Below, piece by piece: positions 54,591 to 64,000 of a stretch of DNA of 64,000 bases. Origin of the DNA: Desulfitobacterium dehalogenans ATCC 51507 (GTDB taxonomy: Bacteria > Bacillota > Desulfitobacteriia > Desulfitobacteriales > Desulfitobacteriaceae); assembly GCF_000243155.2 (NCBI RefSeq), contig NC_018017.1, positions 310,001-374,000 of the forward strand, written 5' to 3'. The translations under genes and the position numbers were made by a program. The notes below the pieces were generated by a model. It saw only the letters and a list, made by a program, of their open reading frames with translations, ran no database searches and was not told the origin of the DNA. Within the stretch, counting starts at the first letter, position 1; every line of letters starts with the position of its first letter.

Positions 54591-55310
54591 TTACGGGACT
54601 ATCATTGTCGTCAAAAGTAAGTAGATACTGGTAAAAAGTAATAAAAGATAAATAATCTTTTGCAGATGTTGTTGATTAAGACGGACAAAGACAAATTGTC
54701 CAAGAATAATGCCCAGCAACATGAAAGGAATAGAAATCAGTGTGGCCTCCCAGACTATGGGAGTACTGCCATAAAGGAAGAGTTGCAGTAGAATACTGAT
54801 CAGATTAATAAACACAAAATAAGCGACGGTTGTACTGCGTATGGTAGCTTTATCAAGGTTCGTTCCTGCATAATAGATCATCAGGGGAGGACCGGGCATG
54901 CCGATGCTTGTGGTGAGAAATCCAGAACACACCCCTACCAGGAGTTCCTTCCTGTCACTTTCTTTTATGCGAACTTTTGTGGCCAATAAGCATGTCGAGA
55001 CCATCAATAACACACTAATGAATACTTTTAATGGCCGGGCATCCATAGTGAAGATGAGGAGTCCAGGCAGAGTACCTAATAAGCTGCCAAGGATTAATCG
55101 TTTCAGAGTCCTGACATTAACAGTATGGCGGATTTTATAAATCATCATGAGGGAGATGATAAGCGCAAGTATAATATTTAATTGGATAGCATCACGGGGG
55201 TCAAACAAGAGGAGGAGAAAGGGAATGGACATGATGGCAAAACCGAATCCAGTGGTGGCTTGTATGGTTGAGGCCGTGAGTATAATTAGTATAAGAGCAT
55301 AGGTGTTCAT
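54591..55310 (-). CDS. TSUP (TauE/SafE) family membrane transporter
   Basis: A 239-residue carrier with about seven or eight helices. Two related halves begin T-x-x-T-G-F-G-F-A-I-M at about 18-28 and G-F-L-T-T-S-I-G-M-P-G-P-P at about 129-141, the family signature loops. TSUP proteins move sulfite, sulfoacetate or other organosulfur anions, usually outward. It lies downstream of the BMC operon but is separated by a hairpin (55397-55440), with its own AAAGGAGG. A link to the BMC substrate is possible but not shown. Confidence 0.85.
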   Translation of the reverse strand: MNTYALILIILTASTIQATTGFGFAIMSIPFLLLLFDPRDAIQLNIILALIISLMMIYKIRHTVNVRTLKRLILGSLLGTLPGLLIFTMDARPLKVFISVLLMVSTCLLATKVRIKESDRKELLVGVCSGFLTTSIGMPGPPLMIYYAGTNLDKATIRSTTVAYFVFINLISILLQLFLYGSTPIVWEATLISIPFMLLGIILGQFVFVRLNQQHLQKIIYLLLLFTSIYLLLTTMIVP

Positions 55311-55474: not shown

Positions 55475-56143
55475 TTATAGGAATGACTTCTGAGTGTTGG
55501 AGTGCGTTTGATGTATTTCTACATAATCCTGATTGTGCAGGCTGGCTGCGTTAGCTTCGTCAATATCGATATGCATTTCCAATCTATAGTGTTCGCTGAC
55601 ACGAATTAAGGTTTCGTTAAATACTAATCCTCGTGGACCGGCAGCGGTGACACTGATCCGCTCTTTATCCTTTACTCCGAAACGTTCTGCATCTGTAGTA
55701 TGCATATGGATATGACGAGCGGCAACGATGACGCCTTCTTGTAAAGTGAGGCAGCCTAAAGGGCCTACGAGAGTAATACTGGCTGAGTTTGCTAAATCGC
55801 CGGAGTCTCTGACGGGAGGGCTGATACCGAGTTTAATCCCGTCAGAAACGGAGATTTCTACTTGGGTGTGGGTGCGGGAGGGTCCCAAAATGCGGACATT
55901 TTCAATGACTCCCTTCACCCCCACGAGGGTCACTTTTTCCTCACAGGCATATTGCTTAGGCTGAGACAAAACTTTTTTGATCTTAAAGGTATGATGCTCT
56001 CCGAAGAGGATTTTGATATCCCTTTGAGATAAATGAACATGGCGGTTGGATATGGCTACAGGGATCTTGTTGTTCTCAGATCTATGACAGATTTGTTTAA
56101 TAGCTGCTTCAGTAATCATCGCAATAAGCTGGCTATTCTCCAT
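55475..56143 (-). CDS. pduL: PduL-type phosphotransacylase (BMC core enzyme)
   Basis: A 222-residue enzyme converting acyl-CoA plus phosphate to acyl-phosphate plus CoA, recycling CoA inside the compartment. Two PduL repeats carry the zinc ligands: S-N-R-H-V-H-L-S near 32-39 and A-R-H-I-H-M near 146-151, plus C-E-E-K-V-T-L-V-G. The first 18 residues (M-E-N-S-Q-L-I-A-M-I-T-E-A-A-I-K-Q-I) form an amphipathic helix of encapsulation-peptide type. The ATG at 56143 is preferred over a GTG nine bases earlier. It follows the aldehyde dehydrogenase gene directly and is last in the operon. Confidence 0.9.
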   Translation of the reverse strand: MENSQLIAMITEAAIKQICHRSENNKIPVAISNRHVHLSQRDIKILFGEHHTFKIKKVLSQPKQYACEEKVTLVGVKGVIENVRILGPSRTHTQVEISVSDGIKLGISPPVRDSGDLANSASITLVGPLGCLTLQEGVIVAARHIHMHTTDAERFGVKDKERISVTAAGPRGLVFNETLIRVSEHYRLEMHIDIDEANAASLHNQDYVEIHQTHSNTQKSFL

Positions 56144-56170
56144 GTGTTTCACCTGCTCTAACTCATAATA

Positions 56171-57658
56171 CTAACAGACCTTCAACTGCTGAAGAACCTG
56201 TTTGACGATATCTTCTATAGCGTCTGATTGTATGTTCAAGGAGTCCACCTTGGGCTGCTGTAAAAGTGAAGAAGCCGCAGTTGTAAAAGTTTGTGTTTTA
56301 GCGAAGGTTGCTTTCTTGATGCCGTAGGTTAAATGTTTAATATTAATTAAATGCTGAGGTCCCAAATTTTCCGAGATGCTGCTTCCACCCCATGTACCGC
56401 AGCCTAGGGTTAAGGATGGCATGAGGCCGGTGGTTTGACCGATGCCACCAAGTGCTGAGGGAGTATTGACGATAATCCGGAAAACAGGCTTTTGAAGAAA
56501 TTCGTGAATGATCGTTTCGTTAAGGGAATGAATCGCACAAGAATGGCCGATCCCGCCGAGCTTTAATAACTCAATACTTAGATTACAGGCTTCTTTCCAG
56601 TCATTAACCACGTAAAAGCCTAATACGGTGGTGAGTTTCTCGTGGGATAGAGGATAATCCCTGCCGTAACCATCCATAGGGGCAATGAGCAGTTTTGCAT
56701 CAGGGGGAATGCTGATGCCGGCTTTTTCAGCAATTACTGCGGGAAGTTGTCCCACTAAAGCATTGTTCATTCCACCAGCCGGGGTGATCACGACGCGACC
56801 GGCTTTTTTCACTTCTTCTGGAGATAGGAAATAGGCACCCAGCCTTTTTAGTTCGGCTATCACTTCATCTTGGATAGGCTGGTCCACAATAATCGACTGC
56901 TCTGAAGCACAGATCATTCCATTATCAAAGGTTTTGCTGACCATAATATCAGAGACGGCTTGCTTGACATCTGCAGTTCGCTCAATGAAGACAGGAACAT
57001 TACCCGATCCCACCCCAAAGGCTGGTTTACCGGCACTGTATGCCGATTTAACTAAGCCTGGTCCACCTGTCGCGATAATCGCGGCCACATCGCTGTGGTG
57101 CATCAGTTCATTGGTAGCTTGGAGGGAGGTTAGGCTGAGGCATGAACACACCCCGTCAGGAGCTCCGGCCCTGACGGCAGCCTCATTGATAAGCTCTGCA
57201 GTGGCACATCCGCATTGGACAGCAAAGGGATGGGGGGAGAAGACGATGGAATTAGCTCCCTTGATGGCGCAAAGGGCATTGTGAATGATGGTTGAGGTGG
57301 GATTGGTACGAGGTGTAACTCCTACTAATACACCCATAGGGGCGGCATAGCGAATGACTTTCGCGTAGGAATCTTCACTGATCGTGCCGATGGTTTTGAT
57401 ATGTTTTGTTGATTCATAGACCTCCCTCGAGGCAAAAAGATTTTTGGCTATTTTGTGCTCAACGATACCGTATTCAGTCTCCTTACAAGCCATCCGTGCC
57501 AATCTTTCAGCATTCGCTTCGATGGCTTCAACGATGGATACCAATATCTTATCAATTTGCTGCTCATTAAAATGGGCTAATTGGAGTTGGGCTTCTTTGG
57601 CCTTTTTGACGAGATGACGAGATTCTTGAATAGAAGCCAAATCAGTATCTAATACCAC
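56171..57658 (-). CDS. CoA-acylating aldehyde dehydrogenase, BMC-targeted
   Basis: A 495-residue enzyme that oxidises an aldehyde to acyl-CoA with NAD+. Catalytic Cys250 is in D-N-G-M-I-C-A-S-E-Q. The cofactor strand G-V-L-V-G-V-T-P-R-T-N-P-T and G-V-G-S-G-N-V-P match the EutE/PduP/SauS group. After a linker, the C-terminal I-Q-S-D-A-I-E-D-I-V-K-Q-V-L-Q-Q-L is an encapsulation peptide. Its sequence does not show which aldehyde is used; acetaldehyde, propionaldehyde and sulfoacetaldehyde are all seen in the group. It lies between the shell gene pair and pduL. Confidence 0.9.
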   Translation of the reverse strand: MVLDTDLASIQESRHLVKKAKEAQLQLAHFNEQQIDKILVSIVEAIEANAERLARMACKETEYGIVEHKIAKNLFASREVYESTKHIKTIGTISEDSYAKVIRYAAPMGVLVGVTPRTNPTSTIIHNALCAIKGANSIVFSPHPFAVQCGCATAELINEAAVRAGAPDGVCSCLSLTSLQATNELMHHSDVAAIIATGGPGLVKSAYSAGKPAFGVGSGNVPVFIERTADVKQAVSDIMVSKTFDNGMICASEQSIIVDQPIQDEVIAELKRLGAYFLSPEEVKKAGRVVITPAGGMNNALVGQLPAVIAEKAGISIPPDAKLLIAPMDGYGRDYPLSHEKLTTVLGFYVVNDWKEACNLSIELLKLGGIGHSCAIHSLNETIIHEFLQKPVFRIIVNTPSALGGIGQTTGLMPSLTLGCGTWGGSSISENLGPQHLINIKHLTYGIKKATFAKTQTFTTAASSLLQQPKVDSLNIQSDAIEDIVKQVLQQLKVC

Positions 57659-58032: not shown

Positions 58033-58311
58033 TTATTTTACTTTAGGTAAAATCATTTCAACATCGCTATGAGGTCTAGGAATAACATGAACAGAAATCA
58101 ATTCACCCACACGTTGTGCAGCGGCAGCACCGGCATCTGTAGCTGCTTTGACTGCACCGACATCTCCACGAACCATGACGGTAACGAGACCACCACCTAC
58201 GAGGACATCCCCGATTAAATGGACATTAGCGGCCTTTACCATGGCATCTGCCGCCTCGATGGAACCGATGAGACCTTTGGTTTCGATCATTCCTAAAGCT
58301 TCCTGTTGCAT
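58033..58311 (-). CDS. BMC-H hexameric shell protein (copy 2)
   Basis: A 92-residue PduA/EutM-type shell protein, highly similar to copy 1 over about 88 residues, with a shorter tail (L-P-K-V-K). Pore loop D-V-L-V-G-G-G-L-V. Small, neutral Gly residues at the pore suggest passage of a polar small molecule. The tandem pair lies between EutQ and the aldehyde dehydrogenase gene. Confidence 0.95.
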
Positions 58312-58360: not shown

Positions 58361-58957
58361 TTAGCAGACATACAAGAGTTTGACTTTATCTGAAGTAGAC
58401 AAGGTGATGGTGGCATGGGCAGGAATATACAGTGTATCGCCAGCCTGTGCAGTATAGCAGCGGTTATCGACACAACATTCCAAGGTACCCTCGACGATGT
58501 AATCGATTTCATCCTTTGTAGTCGTTGAAGTGTAGTCGGTTTTCTCGAGGGTCATAATCCCTACCGAATAGTTGGAGCATTCTTTTTTATTAAATAGCTC
58601 TTTGATCTTGATGCAATCCTTGGGGTTACCTGTATTAAAGTCTTCTAAAATCAGATGGCTTCCCTTGACAATCCTTAAACCACAGGGGTCTGCTTCTTTA
58701 TGGGGCGGTAAAGGACACTGGGGTTGCTTTAAGAAGACCATGACTTCTTCCACGATCTTGGCTAGAAGGGCAGGATCGAGGGAAGAAGCCGAGGGTTGAT
58801 TTGGTGAAGAAAGGGAACGGACTGTAATTTCTACTCCCAACTCCTTAGCAGCATCGTTAGCTGCAGGGGTAATGATACTTTCTTCAGAAACATAGAGTAT
58901 TGTTTGATGGTTTTCAGCTGTAGTTTTGACATCAGCAGCTGTGATTAAGGCTTTCAA
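58361..58957 (-). CDS. eutQ: EutQ-like cupin protein of the BMC
   Basis: A 198-residue protein with a C-terminal cupin (about 95-198; D-E-I-D-Y-I-V-E-G-T-L-E, then G-D-T-L-Y-I-P-A-H-A-T-I). The N-terminal half holds an amphipathic helix (L-D-P-A-L-L-A-K-I-V-E-E-V-M-V-F-L), like the targeting helix of other BMC cargo. EutQ of ethanolamine systems has acetate-kinase activity and interacts with the shell; it could turn the PduL product into ATP here. The cupin metal His residues are not obvious. Confidence 0.85.
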   Translation of the reverse strand: MKALITAADVKTTAENHQTILYVSEESIITPAANDAAKELGVEITVRSLSSPNQPSASSLDPALLAKIVEEVMVFLKQPQCPLPPHKEADPCGLRIVKGSHLILEDFNTGNPKDCIKIKELFNKKECSNYSVGIMTLEKTDYTSTTTKDEIDYIVEGTLECCVDNRCYTAQAGDTLYIPAHATITLSTSDKVKLLYVC

Positions 58958-59002: not shown

Positions 59003-59548
59003 CTAACAGAGGCACTGTTTCAAATTATAATGTGGGGAAGGAATCACGACTTTCTCTACAAGCATTCCTCTTTCGGAAGCCAGAGCAGCTCCTGCTGCAA
59101 CGGAGGATTCCACCGAAGCCACGTCGCCGGTGAGAGTCACAAAAGATTTTCCGCCGATTCCCATGCCGATCCGAATTTCAACCAAGTCCACTTGACCTGT
59201 TTTGGCAGCTGTATCAGCGGCAACGATGAGTGAGGCTACAGAAAAGGTTTCAATGATCCCCAAAGCTATAATCTCCGTAATGGGTGTAGTCGATGAGATG
59301 GCTTTGAGAACTTGGGGATGAACGTTGGGAAGGATAAAATCGTCAAGTACTGAGTTGGCAGCAATGCCTTTTCCAGCGTCTACAGAACTTTGAACGGCAG
59401 CAACATCACCGCAAATCAGTATAGTATACTTTCCCGGGCAAACAGGTTTTGCCTCGAGAAGGTCCACTTGGGCTGCTTTCAGCATAGCATCAGCCGCTTC
59501 GATCCCTTTAGCAATACTGTTGATTTCCACCAAACCTATGGATTCCAT
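59003..59548 (-). CDS. pduT: PduT-like trimeric BMC-T shell protein with probable Fe-S site
   Basis: A 181-residue tandem BMC-domain protein. Domain 1 (about 1-85) begins I-G-L-V-E-I-N-S-I-A-K-G-I-E; domain 2 (about 92-178) begins A-L-G-I-I-E-T-F-S-V-A-S. C37 in K-P-V-C-P-G-K is the position of the [4Fe-4S]-binding cysteine of PduT, so the trimer pore probably carries a cluster for electron transfer across the shell. The neighbouring PduS-like flavoprotein is its usual redox partner. Confidence 0.92.
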   Translation of the reverse strand: MESIGLVEINSIAKGIEAADAMLKAAQVDLLEAKPVCPGKYTILICGDVAAVQSSVDAGKGIAANSVLDDFILPNVHPQVLKAISSTTPITEIIALGIIETFSVASLIVAADTAAKTGQVDLVEIRIGMGIGGKSFVTLTGDVASVESSVAAGAALASERGMLVEKVVIPSPHYNLKQCLC

Positions 59549-59550
59549 GG

Positions 59551-60885
59551 CTATTTTTCACTTCCTTCACTTGAAGAGATAAAGATGCTGTTCGTAATTT
59601 TTTTGACGACCCCGTCGATACTGGCATGAAGACAAGCCCCTATGCCATTGGTGGGAGGGAAAGCAATGGCATCGCCTTTCTTAACCTTACTTCCAACTTT
59701 AACGGAAGGTTTGCACGGGGCACCGATATGTTGGCATAATTTTATGGCGACATTGTGAACGGGATAGTTCTGTTCATTTAGGGGTGCACTTTGGTCATAT
59801 TGTGTTAAAGCGAGTCGAGAAATAAGGCGCTTAATCGGTATTTTACGATGCTTCCGGAGAGGGTCGACAGTTCGGTTGGCTGGGGAGGGATCAGGCTTAA
59901 TGCCCATTTTTGATAATTCATGTTTAAGCATGGCATTCACAGCTCGGGGGGAGAGCCCCATAATGCAGGCGTATTGTTCACAAACACCACATTCAGAGCA
60001 GGAAAAAGCCATTTTCATCGTGTTTTCATCCCCTTGGAGATGTTTAACCATTAGCATCATTTTGTGAGGCTCAATCTTATGTCCCAGCAGGTAACGGGGG
60101 CATAAATCCGTACAATAACGACACTGCATACAACTGACCCGTGATTGGCGCAGAACCTTGTCTGAGGGGAGAGTTTTGCTCTTAATCAAAGGATGATCTT
60201 GTGGCAAGAGGATTAATCCTTTGGTGGTTTTAGTGATGGGTTGGGCCACATCATCGACGATGTTTCCCATCATAGGGCCGCCTTCAATGATCTTCATATG
60301 TTCTAAATCATGGTAACCGGCAAACCCTAAGGCTGCGATGATGGAAGTTCCAATGGGTAATTTTATGGTCATGGGTTGATTGACTTCACCTGTAATGGTG
60401 AGATAGGTATCTGTCACAGGTTTACCTGCAACGGCATCAACGATATTGATTAAGGTTTCTACATTATTGACGATACAGTCGACTTTTAGGGGAATGCCTC
60501 CTTGGGGTATGAGACGGCCAGTCGACTCATAGACGATAAGATGTTCGTCACCGGCCGGATAAAAATCGTTCAGGATGTGAATTCGGATAGGTTTGCCGGC
60601 AATTTCTTTTTCCAGTGCGGCAATGGCATCCTTATACTTGCTTTTAAGAGCGATGATTCCTTCGCCGGCACCCGTTATAGACATCACTATTTCTAAGCCC
60701 ATAACCACTTTAGCTGCTTGGGACGCCATCAGTTGCTGGTCAACTCGAAGCAGGGGTTCACACTCAGCCCCATTGACGATGACGATTTGTGCTTTTGCAG
60801 CAACTTTTACATGAGTCGGGAAACCGGCACCCCCGGCACCTACTACACCTGCTTCTTTAATTTTTTGGATTAATTCTTCACGCAT
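59551..60885 (-). CDS. pduS: PduS/RnfC-like NADH-oxidising Fe-S flavoprotein
   Basis: A 444-residue protein. Residues 14-25 (VVGAGGAGFPTH) are the Gly-rich NADH/FMN site of RnfC/NuoF type. An SLBB-like domain follows. Two 4Fe-4S motifs are C-M-Q-C-R-Y-C-T-D-L-C-P (about 252-263) and C-S-E-C-G-V-C-E-Q-Y-A-C (about 295-306). A barrel-sandwich segment closes the protein. PduS is known as a cobalamin reductase, but no B12 enzyme is in this operon, so here it more likely re-oxidises compartment NADH and passes electrons out through PduT. Its start overlaps the BMC-P stop by eight bases. Confidence 0.9.
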   Translation of the reverse strand: MREELIQKIKEAGVVGAGGAGFPTHVKVAAKAQIVIVNGAECEPLLRVDQQLMASQAAKVVMGLEIVMSITGAGEGIIALKSKYKDAIAALEKEIAGKPIRIHILNDFYPAGDEHLIVYESTGRLIPQGGIPLKVDCIVNNVETLINIVDAVAGKPVTDTYLTITGEVNQPMTIKLPIGTSIIAALGFAGYHDLEHMKIIEGGPMMGNIVDDVAQPITKTTKGLILLPQDHPLIKSKTLPSDKVLRQSRVSCMQCRYCTDLCPRYLLGHKIEPHKMMLMVKHLQGDENTMKMAFSCSECGVCEQYACIMGLSPRAVNAMLKHELSKMGIKPDPSPANRTVDPLRKHRKIPIKRLISRLALTQYDQSAPLNEQNYPVHNVAIKLCQHIGAPCKPSVKVGSKVKKGDAIAFPPTNGIGACLHASIDGVVKKITNSIFISSSEGSEK

Positions 60886-61168
60886 TCTTAGGCACCTCGT
60901 CCGATTTATCTTTTTCCTCGTCTATGATCCCGACGATCACAGAATCGATGGGCGAGGAATTAAAGCTGTCCATATTTCGTGCTGAGCTACCTTCACTGAC
61001 TAAGACCTTTTCGCCGATTCCCGCTCCAATAATGTCGGCACAAACAATGATGCGGCCTAATTCATCATTGGGACGATCAAGGAGCTGGACAATCATCAGC
61101 TTAGTCCCTATCAAAGAATCATCTTTCCGTGTGGCCCAGATACTGTTGATTACTTTTCCAATTCGCAT
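60878..61168 (-). CDS. eutN: EutN/CcmL-type BMC-P pentameric vertex protein
   Basis: A 96-residue beta-barrel protein that caps the vertices. M-R-I-G-K-V-I-N-S-I-W-A-T-R-K at the start, L-I-G-T-K-L-M-I-V, then G-A-G-I-G-E-K-V-L-V-S-E-G-S-S-A-R and S-P-I-D-S-V-I-V-G-I-I-D are the complete EutN signatures. Only one vertex protein gene is visible. GGGGTG precedes the ATG. The stop overlaps the pduS start. Confidence 0.95.
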   Translation of the reverse strand: MRIGKVINSIWATRKDDSLIGTKLMIVQLLDRPNDELGRIIVCADIIGAGIGEKVLVSEGSSARNMDSFNSSPIDSVIVGIIDEEKDKSDEVPKNA

Positions 61169-61226: not shown

Positions 61227-62060
61227 TCAGGAACAGGCCTTGGTTACTTCTAAAGCGATTCCTAAGGGAGTCACAAGGAAGGGATTGGCTGGTTTAATGA
61301 CTGGCAGATGAAGCTCTGCCTCAATAATGGTTTCAAACTGTGTAAAACAGCCCGTACCGCCAACAAGAAAAACCTTATCGACGTTGCGATTTTGAATATG
61401 TTGTCTGATGATAGTCGTAAATTTTTCAATAACAGGCTTGATAGTTGGCAACAGCATCTGATGATGATTAGAATCATTTTTTAGTTTTTCTGCTTTTTCA
61501 AAAGGGATTTTACAAGCTCCTGAAATAACTAAACTCACATGGACCCCCCCTGTTGGTTCATCGGCAAGATAGGCCACCCGGCCATCTTCAATGATTGCAA
61601 TACCTGTGGTTCCTCCTCCGATGTCCACGACAGCACCATTCTCAATATTCAATACATTATTGGCGGCGGAAGGTTCATCAATGGAAACGGCCACTTCAAA
61701 GCCGACAGCCTCGGCAATATAGCGAAAGGCTTTTTGGTCACCTTCGGAGGTTCCAGGGGGATAGGCTATTCCCGCTTGGAGGAGTTCTGCGTCAAGGGAA
61801 TTCTCGATTTTTGCTTTGAGTTCCCCCACGATCTCAACGGCCCCATGATAATCAACAACAAGTCCGTCCCGGACGACTTGTGCAAAGCGCATGGCGCCGG
61901 CTACGGGGGCGCCGTCTTCATCAACGACTGCGAGAACGGTGTAAGCAGTGCCCAGATCGACTCCACTATAAAGCTTCTTATGTCCGCTATAGGGCTTGGG
62001 GTGCTCGATGACTTCTTGAAAAGCCTCAATGAGCTGGTTAGCTTTTCCTATAGTTTTCAT
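61227..62060 (-). CDS. eutJ: EutJ-like actin/Hsp70-fold protein
   Basis: A 277-residue ATP-binding protein. The phosphate loops are S-G-V-D-L-G-T-A-Y-T at about 32-41 and V-D-I-G-G-G-T-T at about 145-152, and the adenosine motif is F-L-V-G-G-T-G. EutJ-family proteins occur in BMC operons and are taken to be chaperones or reactivase-like. They are often paired with radical or B12 enzymes that need reactivation; here the only candidate client in the operon is the upstream amidohydrolase-like protein, or a lyase encoded elsewhere. Confidence 0.87.
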   Translation of the reverse strand: MKTIGKANQLIEAFQEVIEHPKPYSGHKKLYSGVDLGTAYTVLAVVDEDGAPVAGAMRFAQVVRDGLVVDYHGAVEIVGELKAKIENSLDAELLQAGIAYPPGTSEGDQKAFRYIAEAVGFEVAVSIDEPSAANNVLNIENGAVVDIGGGTTGIAIIEDGRVAYLADEPTGGVHVSLVISGACKIPFEKAEKLKNDSNHHQMLLPTIKPVIEKFTTIIRQHIQNRNVDKVFLVGGTGCFTQFETIIEAELHLPVIKPANPFLVTPLGIALEVTKACS

Positions 62061-62072
62061 GAGTGCCCTCAG

Positions 62073-63011
62073 TTAGCGACTCGCTAACATGCCTTTCTGT
62101 GAAAGCTGGGCAATCACATTTTCGATAATAACTTGTATCTGTTGACTATCCATCGTCTTGCTCACGGAGGAAGCACTATCACTAAGCCCCAAGATTTTAG
62201 CAGCATTTTTATACATCACTTTTTCACGAACTTCGGGTTTAAAGGGGAGTTGTTCATAATTTTTCAAAGCAATTTTAAAATCAACAAAGGGATGAGCGCT
62301 GGCGTACATGATTTTATCACTGAGAATTGAGTTGGCGGCTTCTATATAGGCGTCCGCTTGTGGGAAGAATTCATATTCTGATAACTCAAGGAAGACATTA
62401 GCATTCCGTTGTGCGACAGTAATCATTTCATTGACCCAAGGATATCCACCATGACTGACAATAATCTTCAACTCGGGAAAGTCGCGAGCTACAAAGTCAA
62501 TGTAGCGAGGGGCAACATGATCGATAACCGCATTAGGAACTAAGGTTCCAGGGCCGGTGGCAATAATTAAAGGAATATCTAATTCGCAACACTTTGCATA
62601 AATCGGGTAGTATTTGGCGTCGTTAACATAAATACGGGCCAGGTAGGGGTCAATTGCGGCTCCCTTGATCCCTTCATTGTTAACAACATGTTTAAGTTCT
62701 TCTATAGCGGCCATTCCTTTGTGGGGATCTAATCCTGCAAAACCGATAAACTTGTCAGGAAATCGATGACAGAACTCGATCACACTCGTGTTATTTGATT
62801 TTGCACCGTAAGTTGTTTCACAATCCCGGCCGGAAATCACAGCCTTAACGACATGATGATGATCCAGCTCCTGAACAACTTCCTCTACAGTTTGAGGGAG
62901 CATTTTGTTAAAATCGATGGATTGGCACATCCCTTTAAAAGCAGGGTTGCTCGAGATTCCTTTTAAGATTTCTTCAGTATTAGGTCTAAATCTGAAATCA
63001 ATAATGGTCAT
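62073..63011 (-). CDS. Amidohydrolase-2-fold protein with C-terminal encapsulation peptide; metal site degenerate
   Basis: First gene of the BMC operon: 312 residues. Residues 1-275 follow the TIM-barrel ACMSD/amidohydrolase-2 pattern, but the canonical metal ligands are mostly replaced. The H-x-H of strand 1 is R7-F-R9 (after D5), the H-T-G His is A151 (I-I-A-T-G) and the G-S-D-Y-P Asp is A239 (A-S-A-H-P). Only H187 (V-S-H-G-G-Y) remains. After a Ser-rich linker, residues about 287-306 (M-D-S-Q-Q-I-Q-V-I-I-E-N-V-I-A-Q-L-S-Q-K) form an encapsulation peptide. It is probably cargo with altered, perhaps metal-free, chemistry, and may be the signature enzyme. Strong RBS (AAGGAGG). Confidence 0.8.
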   Translation of the reverse strand: MTIIDFRFRPNTEEILKGISSNPAFKGMCQSIDFNKMLPQTVEEVVQELDHHHVVKAVISGRDCETTYGAKSNNTSVIEFCHRFPDKFIGFAGLDPHKGMAAIEELKHVVNNEGIKGAAIDPYLARIYVNDAKYYPIYAKCCELDIPLIIATGPGTLVPNAVIDHVAPRYIDFVARDFPELKIIVSHGGYPWVNEMITVAQRNANVFLELSEYEFFPQADAYIEAANSILSDKIMYASAHPFVDFKIALKNYEQLPFKPEVREKVMYKNAAKILGLSDSASSVSKTMDSQQIQVIIENVIAQLSQKGMLASR

Positions 63012-63291: not shown

Positions 63292-64000
63292 ATGACACAG
63301 GATTATTGGAGTAATTCGGGTATTTCTGGACTTCATCAGCAAGTTATTGAAGTGCTTTCTGAGGGAGTTTACATTTCTGATGCCGAGGGTATGACTATTG
63401 CGGTTAATTCCATGTACGAACAGCTTACCGGTTTGAAATGTAAAGAGGTTATAGGGAAAAATGTTAAGGAGCTAGTAGGTAAGGGAATATACAGTGTGGC
63501 TCTAAATCCGGAAATAGTGGTCACCGGTGAGCATAAATCGTCGGTGCAGATCACGAAGACAGGGCAAAAAGTTTTATTAAACGGCTATCCCATATGTGAT
63601 GAATCAGGTAAAGTTTGCTTTGTTTTGACCTTTGTCAGAGATATTTCTTTATTGTCCCGGTTAAAGGAGCAGATTGTAGAGCAACAGGATACGATTATTA
63701 AGTACCGTGAAGCGAATAAGCATTGCAAAAAGGTCTTAAAAAGTAACTCCGAAATATTTAAAAGCAAAAAAATGCTTACCCTAATGGAAAAATTGAAAAG
63801 GATAGCCAAAACAGATGCCACAGTTTTGCTCTTGGGGGAAACTGGGGTAGGGAAAGATGTTTTAGCACACAAAATTCATGAATATAGCGCGAGACGCAAT
63901 GAACTTTTCCTAAAAATTGATTGTTCGACCATCCCTGAGAACTTAATTGAATCTGAGTTATTTGGTTATGATTACGGTGCCTTTTCGGGAGCCAGTACAA
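63292..64000 (+). CDS. Sigma-54-dependent activator with PAS domain (N-terminal part, cut by window edge)
   Basis: The first 236 codons of an enhancer-binding protein; the gene continues past 64000. AGGGAGGG lies about 8 bases before the ATG. Residues about 15-120 are a PAS sensor (Y-I-S-D-A-E-G-M-T-I-A-V-N). A coiled linker follows, then the AAA+ domain with Walker A G-E-T-G-V-G-K-D and the sigma-54 contact loop as G-A-F-S-G-A instead of G-A-F-T-G-A. It is divergent from the BMC operon and from its -24/-12 promoter, so it is the operon's activator. The ligand sensed by the PAS domain would be the BMC substrate or a product. Confidence 0.9.
   Translation, partial: MTQDYWSNSGISGLHQQVIEVLSEGVYISDAEGMTIAVNSMYEQLTGLKCKEVIGKNVKELVGKGIYSVALNPEIVVTGEHKSSVQITKTGQKVLLNGYPICDESGKVCFVLTFVRDISLLSRLKEQIVEQQDTIIKYREANKHCKKVLKSNSEIFKSKKMLTLMEKLKRIAKTDATVLLLGETGVGKDVLAHKIHEYSARRNELFLKIDCSTIPENLIESELFGYDYGAFSGAST

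Follow-up and report, generated by a model that had tools for sequence, protein, structure and literature searches.

An Arg-x-Arg amidohydrolase-fold protein accompanies sulfite-lyase radical enzymes near-obligatorily, in and outside bacterial microcompartments

We identified an amidohydrolase-fold protein with an Arg-x-Arg motif as a near-obligate companion of sulfite-lyase radical enzymes, both in and outside loci that encode bacterial microcompartments (BMCs), and found that it carries a targeting tail only at BMC loci. The protein, here P0001, is encoded in a 64,000-nucleotide stretch of the genome of Desulfitobacterium dehalogenans ATCC 51507 (NC_018017.1, positions 310,001 to 374,000), which we refer to as the window. 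Among 247 genomes of one class, 87 encode both the radical enzyme and a P0001-type protein, six the radical enzyme only, none the P0001-type protein only, and 154 neither (Fisher p ~4e-60, a value not corrected for phylogeny and, the genomes being related, indicative only). A contig scan yielded 80 loci, and sulfate or sulfite reducers were the source of nearly all of them. Most loci with a P0001-type gene have an IslA-type or HpsG-type radical enzyme within the same stretch, and the radical enzyme was located elsewhere in the genome in all 18 of the checked genomes whose fetched stretch showed none. In more than half of the companion loci, the stretch is free of shell genes (e.g. L058-L060 and L111-L118). 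The companion's link to the radical enzyme in and outside BMCs and the pattern of its tail are new here, while the isethionate microcompartment itself is known already.

The P0001 gene (312 codons; 62073..63011, minus strand) was characterized from its open reading frame, a profile match to Amidohydro_2 (PF04909, 130.5 bits against a cut-off of 26.4, residues 73-276), a predicted model (pLDDT 89.8, pTM 0.83), and its closest solved fold, 3irs_A. This agrees with an earlier note on the window, which had placed the frame in the amidohydrolase-2 barrel. The motifs of P0001 read D5-F-R7-F-R9, I-I-A151-T-G, S186-H187-G188, and A237-S-A239-H240. In an alignment with 47 relatives, the same columns hold H-x-H, H-T-G, H, and G-S-D in ordinary homologues, and R-x-R, A/T-T-G, H, and A-S-A in P0001 and its closer relatives. 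P0001 has neither the His-x-His after strand 1, which is replaced by R7-F8-R9 (codons 62985..62993, minus strand), nor the catalytic Asp after strand 8, the position of which is taken by A239 (A239-H240 codons, 62292..62297, minus strand). The replacements at R7/R9, A151, and A239 are as the earlier note described them, but they are not peculiar to P0001: every one of 54 homologues has R7, R9, and A239, position 151 (Ala in P0001) is Thr in 47 of the 54, and the pattern recurs in 3IRS. H187, also invariant (codon 62451..62453, minus strand), is the single canonical metal ligand retained, as had been noted, though it is not the only conserved histidine at the site, with H240 kept in 53 of 54 homologues. 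Homologues that retain H-x-H and the Asp were looked for within this BMC context, and none was found. By descent, P0001 is an amidohydrolase-2 protein, while its metal site places it outside the metal-dependent enzymes, and the dismantled site suggests that it probably works without a catalytic metal.

The closest solved structure is that of BB4693 from Bordetella bronchiseptica (3IRS; Z 31.6, 30% identity), followed by 3cjp (Z 26.1). BB4693 (also 3K4W) and P0001 have in common D-F-R-x-R-P, the retained strand-6 His, and the strand-8 Asp changed to Ala, and P0001 shows all features of the BB4693 group, namely the D-F-R-x-R-P start, the strand-6 His, Ala or Ser for Asp, and the same fold. BB4693 differs in having no targeting tail, no known radical-enzyme neighbour, and no known function, and a literature search found no paper on it. 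ACMSD, gamma-resorcylate decarboxylase, and LigJ share the same barrel (Z about 21-24), but they keep the metal ligands that P0001 has lost. Because 3IRS has the R-x-R and Ala pattern, the altered site extends more widely than BMCs, and it is older than BMC use.

Loss of the canonical metal ligands would also be expected if P0001 were a decayed pseudoenzyme devoid of function. The residues invariant in the 54 homologues include R7, R9, R62, D63, D95, K98, D121, H187, E212, and E214, and these, together with H240, all lie directly after barrel strands. Active sites of the TIM-barrel amidohydrolase fold sit in just these positions. They hold 11 of the 19 invariant charged residues in the 54 homologues, compared with 3 of the 53 remaining charged residues (p 6e-6). 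Family identity is high across Bacillota and Desulfobacterota; between the window and locus L066, it is 77% for P0001, 69% for the aldehyde dehydrogenase, 68% for PduL, and 46% for EutQ. Since invariant charged residues line the barrel mouth, and since P0001 is conserved above the dehydrogenase and phosphotransacylase of its own operon, a decayed pseudoenzyme is very improbable. The invariant charged mouth likewise disfavours the non-catalytic scaffold that the earlier note had offered as one of two readings; a role as adaptor is a separate matter, considered below.

P0001 is encoded by the first gene of a minus-strand BMC operon, which it heads as described previously, opposite a divergent PAS/sigma-54-type regulator (63292..64000, plus strand) that continues past the window. 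A search for sigma-54 promoters found no match in the divergent gap, and matches across the window did not exceed chance level. The genes that follow, all on the minus strand, encode an EutJ-like chaperone (61227..62060; NF011660, 372 bits), a BMC-P shell vertex protein of the EutN/CcmL type (60878..61168; PF03319), a PduS/RnfC-like electron-transfer protein (59551..60885; PF01512, PF13534, PF13375, and PF10531), a PduT-like BMC-T shell protein (59003..59548; PF00936 twice), an EutQ-like cupin (58361..58957; PF06249), and two BMC-H shell proteins (58033..58311, PF00936; 57713..58003, with a translation near-identical to its neighbour and the PF00936 match G000:C1:367764-367991). These are followed by an EutE-type acetylating acetaldehyde dehydrogenase (56171..57658; TIGR02518, 617.7 bits, below the cut-off of 620.1), a PduL phosphotransacylase (55475..56152; PF06130, 255.7 bits), and a TauE/SafE-type transporter (54591..55310; PF01925), which is plausibly a sulfite exporter; TauE-like genes also adjoin the sulfite-lyase in L058, L059, L060, L071, and L093. 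A small protein of 111-116 residues, DsrE-like by eye, adjoins the sulfite-lyase activase in Bacillota loci (L058:10268-10615, L059:17275-17616, and L060:17080-17430; also L071) and may handle sulfur. The genome holds a second set of BMC shell genes outside the window (G000:C1:4257664-4272730), probably of the ethanolamine type.

The earlier note had concluded that the operon has no standard signature enzyme, which proved to be an artefact of the window's edge. A glycyl radical enzyme of 833 residues (genome positions 375,019-377,520) starts 1,019 bases past the window's end at 374,000 and is followed by its activase gene and a TRAP transporter. Its best PDB match is 5ymr (1395 bits), followed by isethionate sulfite-lyase 7kq3 (1298) and 6lon (1255), which we take to be HpsG. 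At the sulfonate-binding positions of IseG (R187, I190, Q191, R676, and F680; PMC6453916), mapped on the inference that the numbering of the PDB chain is shifted by 20 residues, the enzyme carries FRSSIQ and RLVPF, compared with YRSALQ and RYVPI in 6lon. It is therefore predicted to be of the isethionate sulfite-lyase type (IslA/IseG). The NCBIfam model for (2S)-3-sulfopropanediol dehydratase, HpsG (NF048011), matches it as well (L021:3020-5521; 1575.6 bits, far above cut-off), so this model evidently also accepts IslA-type proteins, and annotation pipelines that use it may mislabel IslA as HpsG.

The gene content thus points to the known isethionate microcompartment of Bilophila and Desulfitobacterium (PMC8667426, PMC9888536). 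The locus shares with those of Bilophila wadsworthia and Desulfitobacterium hafniense the radical enzyme, activase, acetylating aldehyde dehydrogenase, phosphotransacylase, EutN, BMC-T, PduS, and EutQ (PMC8667426, PMC9888536, PMC6453916), and with the Bilophila locus also a gene for a "predicted amidohydrolase". That gene, 00649, is listed as a "hypothetical protein, predicted amidohydrolase function" and is assigned no role (PMC8667426, Table 1). These accounts of the isethionate BMC leave the amidohydrolase without a role and mention neither the loss of its metal site nor its occurrence outside BMCs nor its tail pattern. That P0001 heads its operon and carries a targeting tail had suggested an aldehyde-making signature enzyme of a new BMC chemistry. 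The adjacent radical enzyme, however, has the isethionate-binding residues and in the described pathway is itself the source of the aldehyde (PMC6453916, PMC8667426, PMC9888536), and P0001-type genes also lie beside the radical enzyme in many loci without a BMC. We therefore reject a new chemistry, and a signature-enzyme role for P0001 has next to no probability.

The association with radical enzymes spans more than one type. HpsG, the DHPS lyase, accompanies the companion in four loci (YRSALQ/RYVPI). The six genomes with a radical enzyme and no companion comprise two with the IslA type (one of them a 1.6-Mb assembly), three with the HpsG type, and one of unclear type. The link between companion and radical enzyme was not found in the literature on the pathway, a scope that stops short of the BMC catalogue supplements (PMC8217296), and no viral copies of the P0001-type gene were found. 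An apparent fusion in L085 of the companion to a 500-residue N-terminal part was rejected as a false reading frame in GC-rich DNA. Several relatives occur in other settings. In L061:1894-7367 (genome G286), one has as neighbours an iron alcohol dehydrogenase, a hydroxyacid dehydrogenase, and a radical enzyme whose pocket motif differs (YRSSIN/RMVPV) and which may be a lyase acting on some other substrate. In L005:1498-3847 (G010), an Arg-x-Arg relative with 37% identity adjoins another glycyl radical enzyme, so the pairing may extend beyond sulfite-lyases. Three Arg-x-Arg relatives stand in a row by a TRAP-type permease gene in L026:5527-7623 and in L004 (G003, of the window's genus).

Whether the companion bears a C-terminal tail follows the presence of a shell. 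The predicted model of P0001 has a low-confidence, unordered linker (residues 279-287) and then a helix (residues 289-305; 62097..62147, minus strand), matching the encapsulation peptide proposed from the sequence, although the hydrophobic moment of this tail (0.34, p 0.15 against shuffles) is not significant alone. With a tail defined as at least 20 residues, and L062 counted by its N-terminal extension instead, all 34 BMC loci have one and 49 of the 54 other loci do not (p 2e-19). In four of the five exceptions, shell genes are positioned between 10 bases and 2.1 kb past the fetched edge, on the assumption that the contig numbers refer to the contigs of these loci; the fifth, L133, lies where its contig ends, and the shell genes of its genome are on a different contig. 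A tail is accordingly present in 39 loci, and 38 of these have shell genes within or close to the fetched stretch; none of the 49 loci lacking such genes has a tail. Some tail-less genomes also have shell genes away from the locus, presumably those of other BMC types, and therefore it is the shell at the locus that counts. Several mutually unrelated tail sequences occur (IIESVIKELAKRG, LVGEIVREVMARLG, LPLPFQPFSP, and IASRIVAELKKVM). On a maximum-likelihood tree, the tail changes nine times, and all eight independent pairs agree with BMC presence when the five exceptions are scored as BMC; this paired test concerns the tail pattern and not the co-occurrence. Together with the helix, the pattern supports the reading of P0001 as BMC cargo. 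L062:9521-10498 (G378) is a BMC locus without a radical enzyme, in which the P0001-type protein has the N-terminal extension and IslA-like enzymes are encoded elsewhere in the genome.

The main rival to a catalytic role is that of an adaptor or chaperone, whereby P0001 would bind the radical enzyme or its activase, its tail would carry the tail-less enzyme into the BMC, and outside BMCs it would stabilize or protect the radical enzyme. The termini of the radical enzyme are equally short in BMC and non-BMC loci and hold no targeting peptide of their own, the companion gains and loses its tail along with the BMC, and IslA has been found in Bilophila BMC fractions (PMC8667426). An adaptor, however, would mainly conserve a binding surface, while most of the invariant charged residues here are in barrel-mouth loops, and we consider this role unlikely. 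Similarly doubtful is catalysis, whether or not it involves an unusual metal, of a step upstream of the radical enzyme or of one that deals with a side product: P0001 might make or release the sulfonate substrate, for instance, or clear harmful by-products such as those of aldehyde condensation. Decarboxylases and hydratases share the fold, and the companion occurs with more than one type of radical enzyme; yet TRAP transporters import isethionate directly, leaving an upstream step unneeded (PMC6453916, PMC11668362), and the tail places P0001 among the shell enzymes.

We propose instead that P0001 serves sulfite-lyase radical enzymes, above all IslA/IseG, as a dedicated companion in which an arginine-rich, probably anion-binding pocket replaces the metal site and acts on the radical enzyme's products, a reading for which we judge the case to be evenly balanced. 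Both radical enzymes, IslA and HpsG, release sulfite and a carbonyl compound. P0001 would act without metal on this output, and would therefore have to follow the radical enzyme into the shell. The specific reaction that we suggest as the likeliest one, the splitting of the acetaldehyde-bisulfite adduct (1-hydroxyethanesulfonate), is more tentative and, taken alone, less probable than not. Acetaldehyde and bisulfite form this adduct spontaneously, and in a closed shell with equal amounts of the two, much of each might be tied up in it. We hypothesize that an adduct-splitting lyase would need an arginine pocket to grip the sulfonate and a base for the hydroxyl. In P0001, R7, R9, and R62 could grip the sulfonate, and H187 or H240, with D121 or E212, could take the hydroxyl proton, whereby acetaldehyde would pass to the dehydrogenase and sulfite to sulfite reductase. 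The ketone product of HpsG should bind sulfite less tightly than acetaldehyde does, and the three HpsG-type genomes without a companion fit the proposed adduct splitting because such a product lowers the need for it. Acetaldehyde is known to react readily with bisulfite, and it serves to remove bisulfite from wine samples (PMC12794251).

Several points speak against adduct splitting. The adduct also dissociates unaided, two IslA-type genomes have no companion, and for purified IslA, a direct elimination has been proposed that would release acetaldehyde and sulfite without help (PMC8473560). Moreover, a member of the wider Arg-x-Arg family lies beside TRAP and ThDP-enzyme genes in L064, and since the family (3IRS, L064) has no fixed link to sulfonates, carboxylates may be all that the arginines bind. 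In the boldest form of the proposal, a metal was swapped for arginines to give an unrecognized alpha-hydroxysulfonate lyase, which would supply a step so far missed between desulfonation by the radical enzyme and respiration of the sulfite and would have been imported repeatedly into microcompartments; we hold this form to be unlikely as a whole.

Desulfonation by IslA-type enzymes feeds hydrogen sulfide production by gut bacteria such as Bilophila, and the pathway is treated as complete. Retention of the companion in 87 of the 93 genomes with a radical enzyme points to a missed step or helper in this pathway, and P0001 probably does an unrecognized job on the pathway's products. More generally, the repeated gain of a tail along with the shell amounts to a natural experiment on where the companion is needed.
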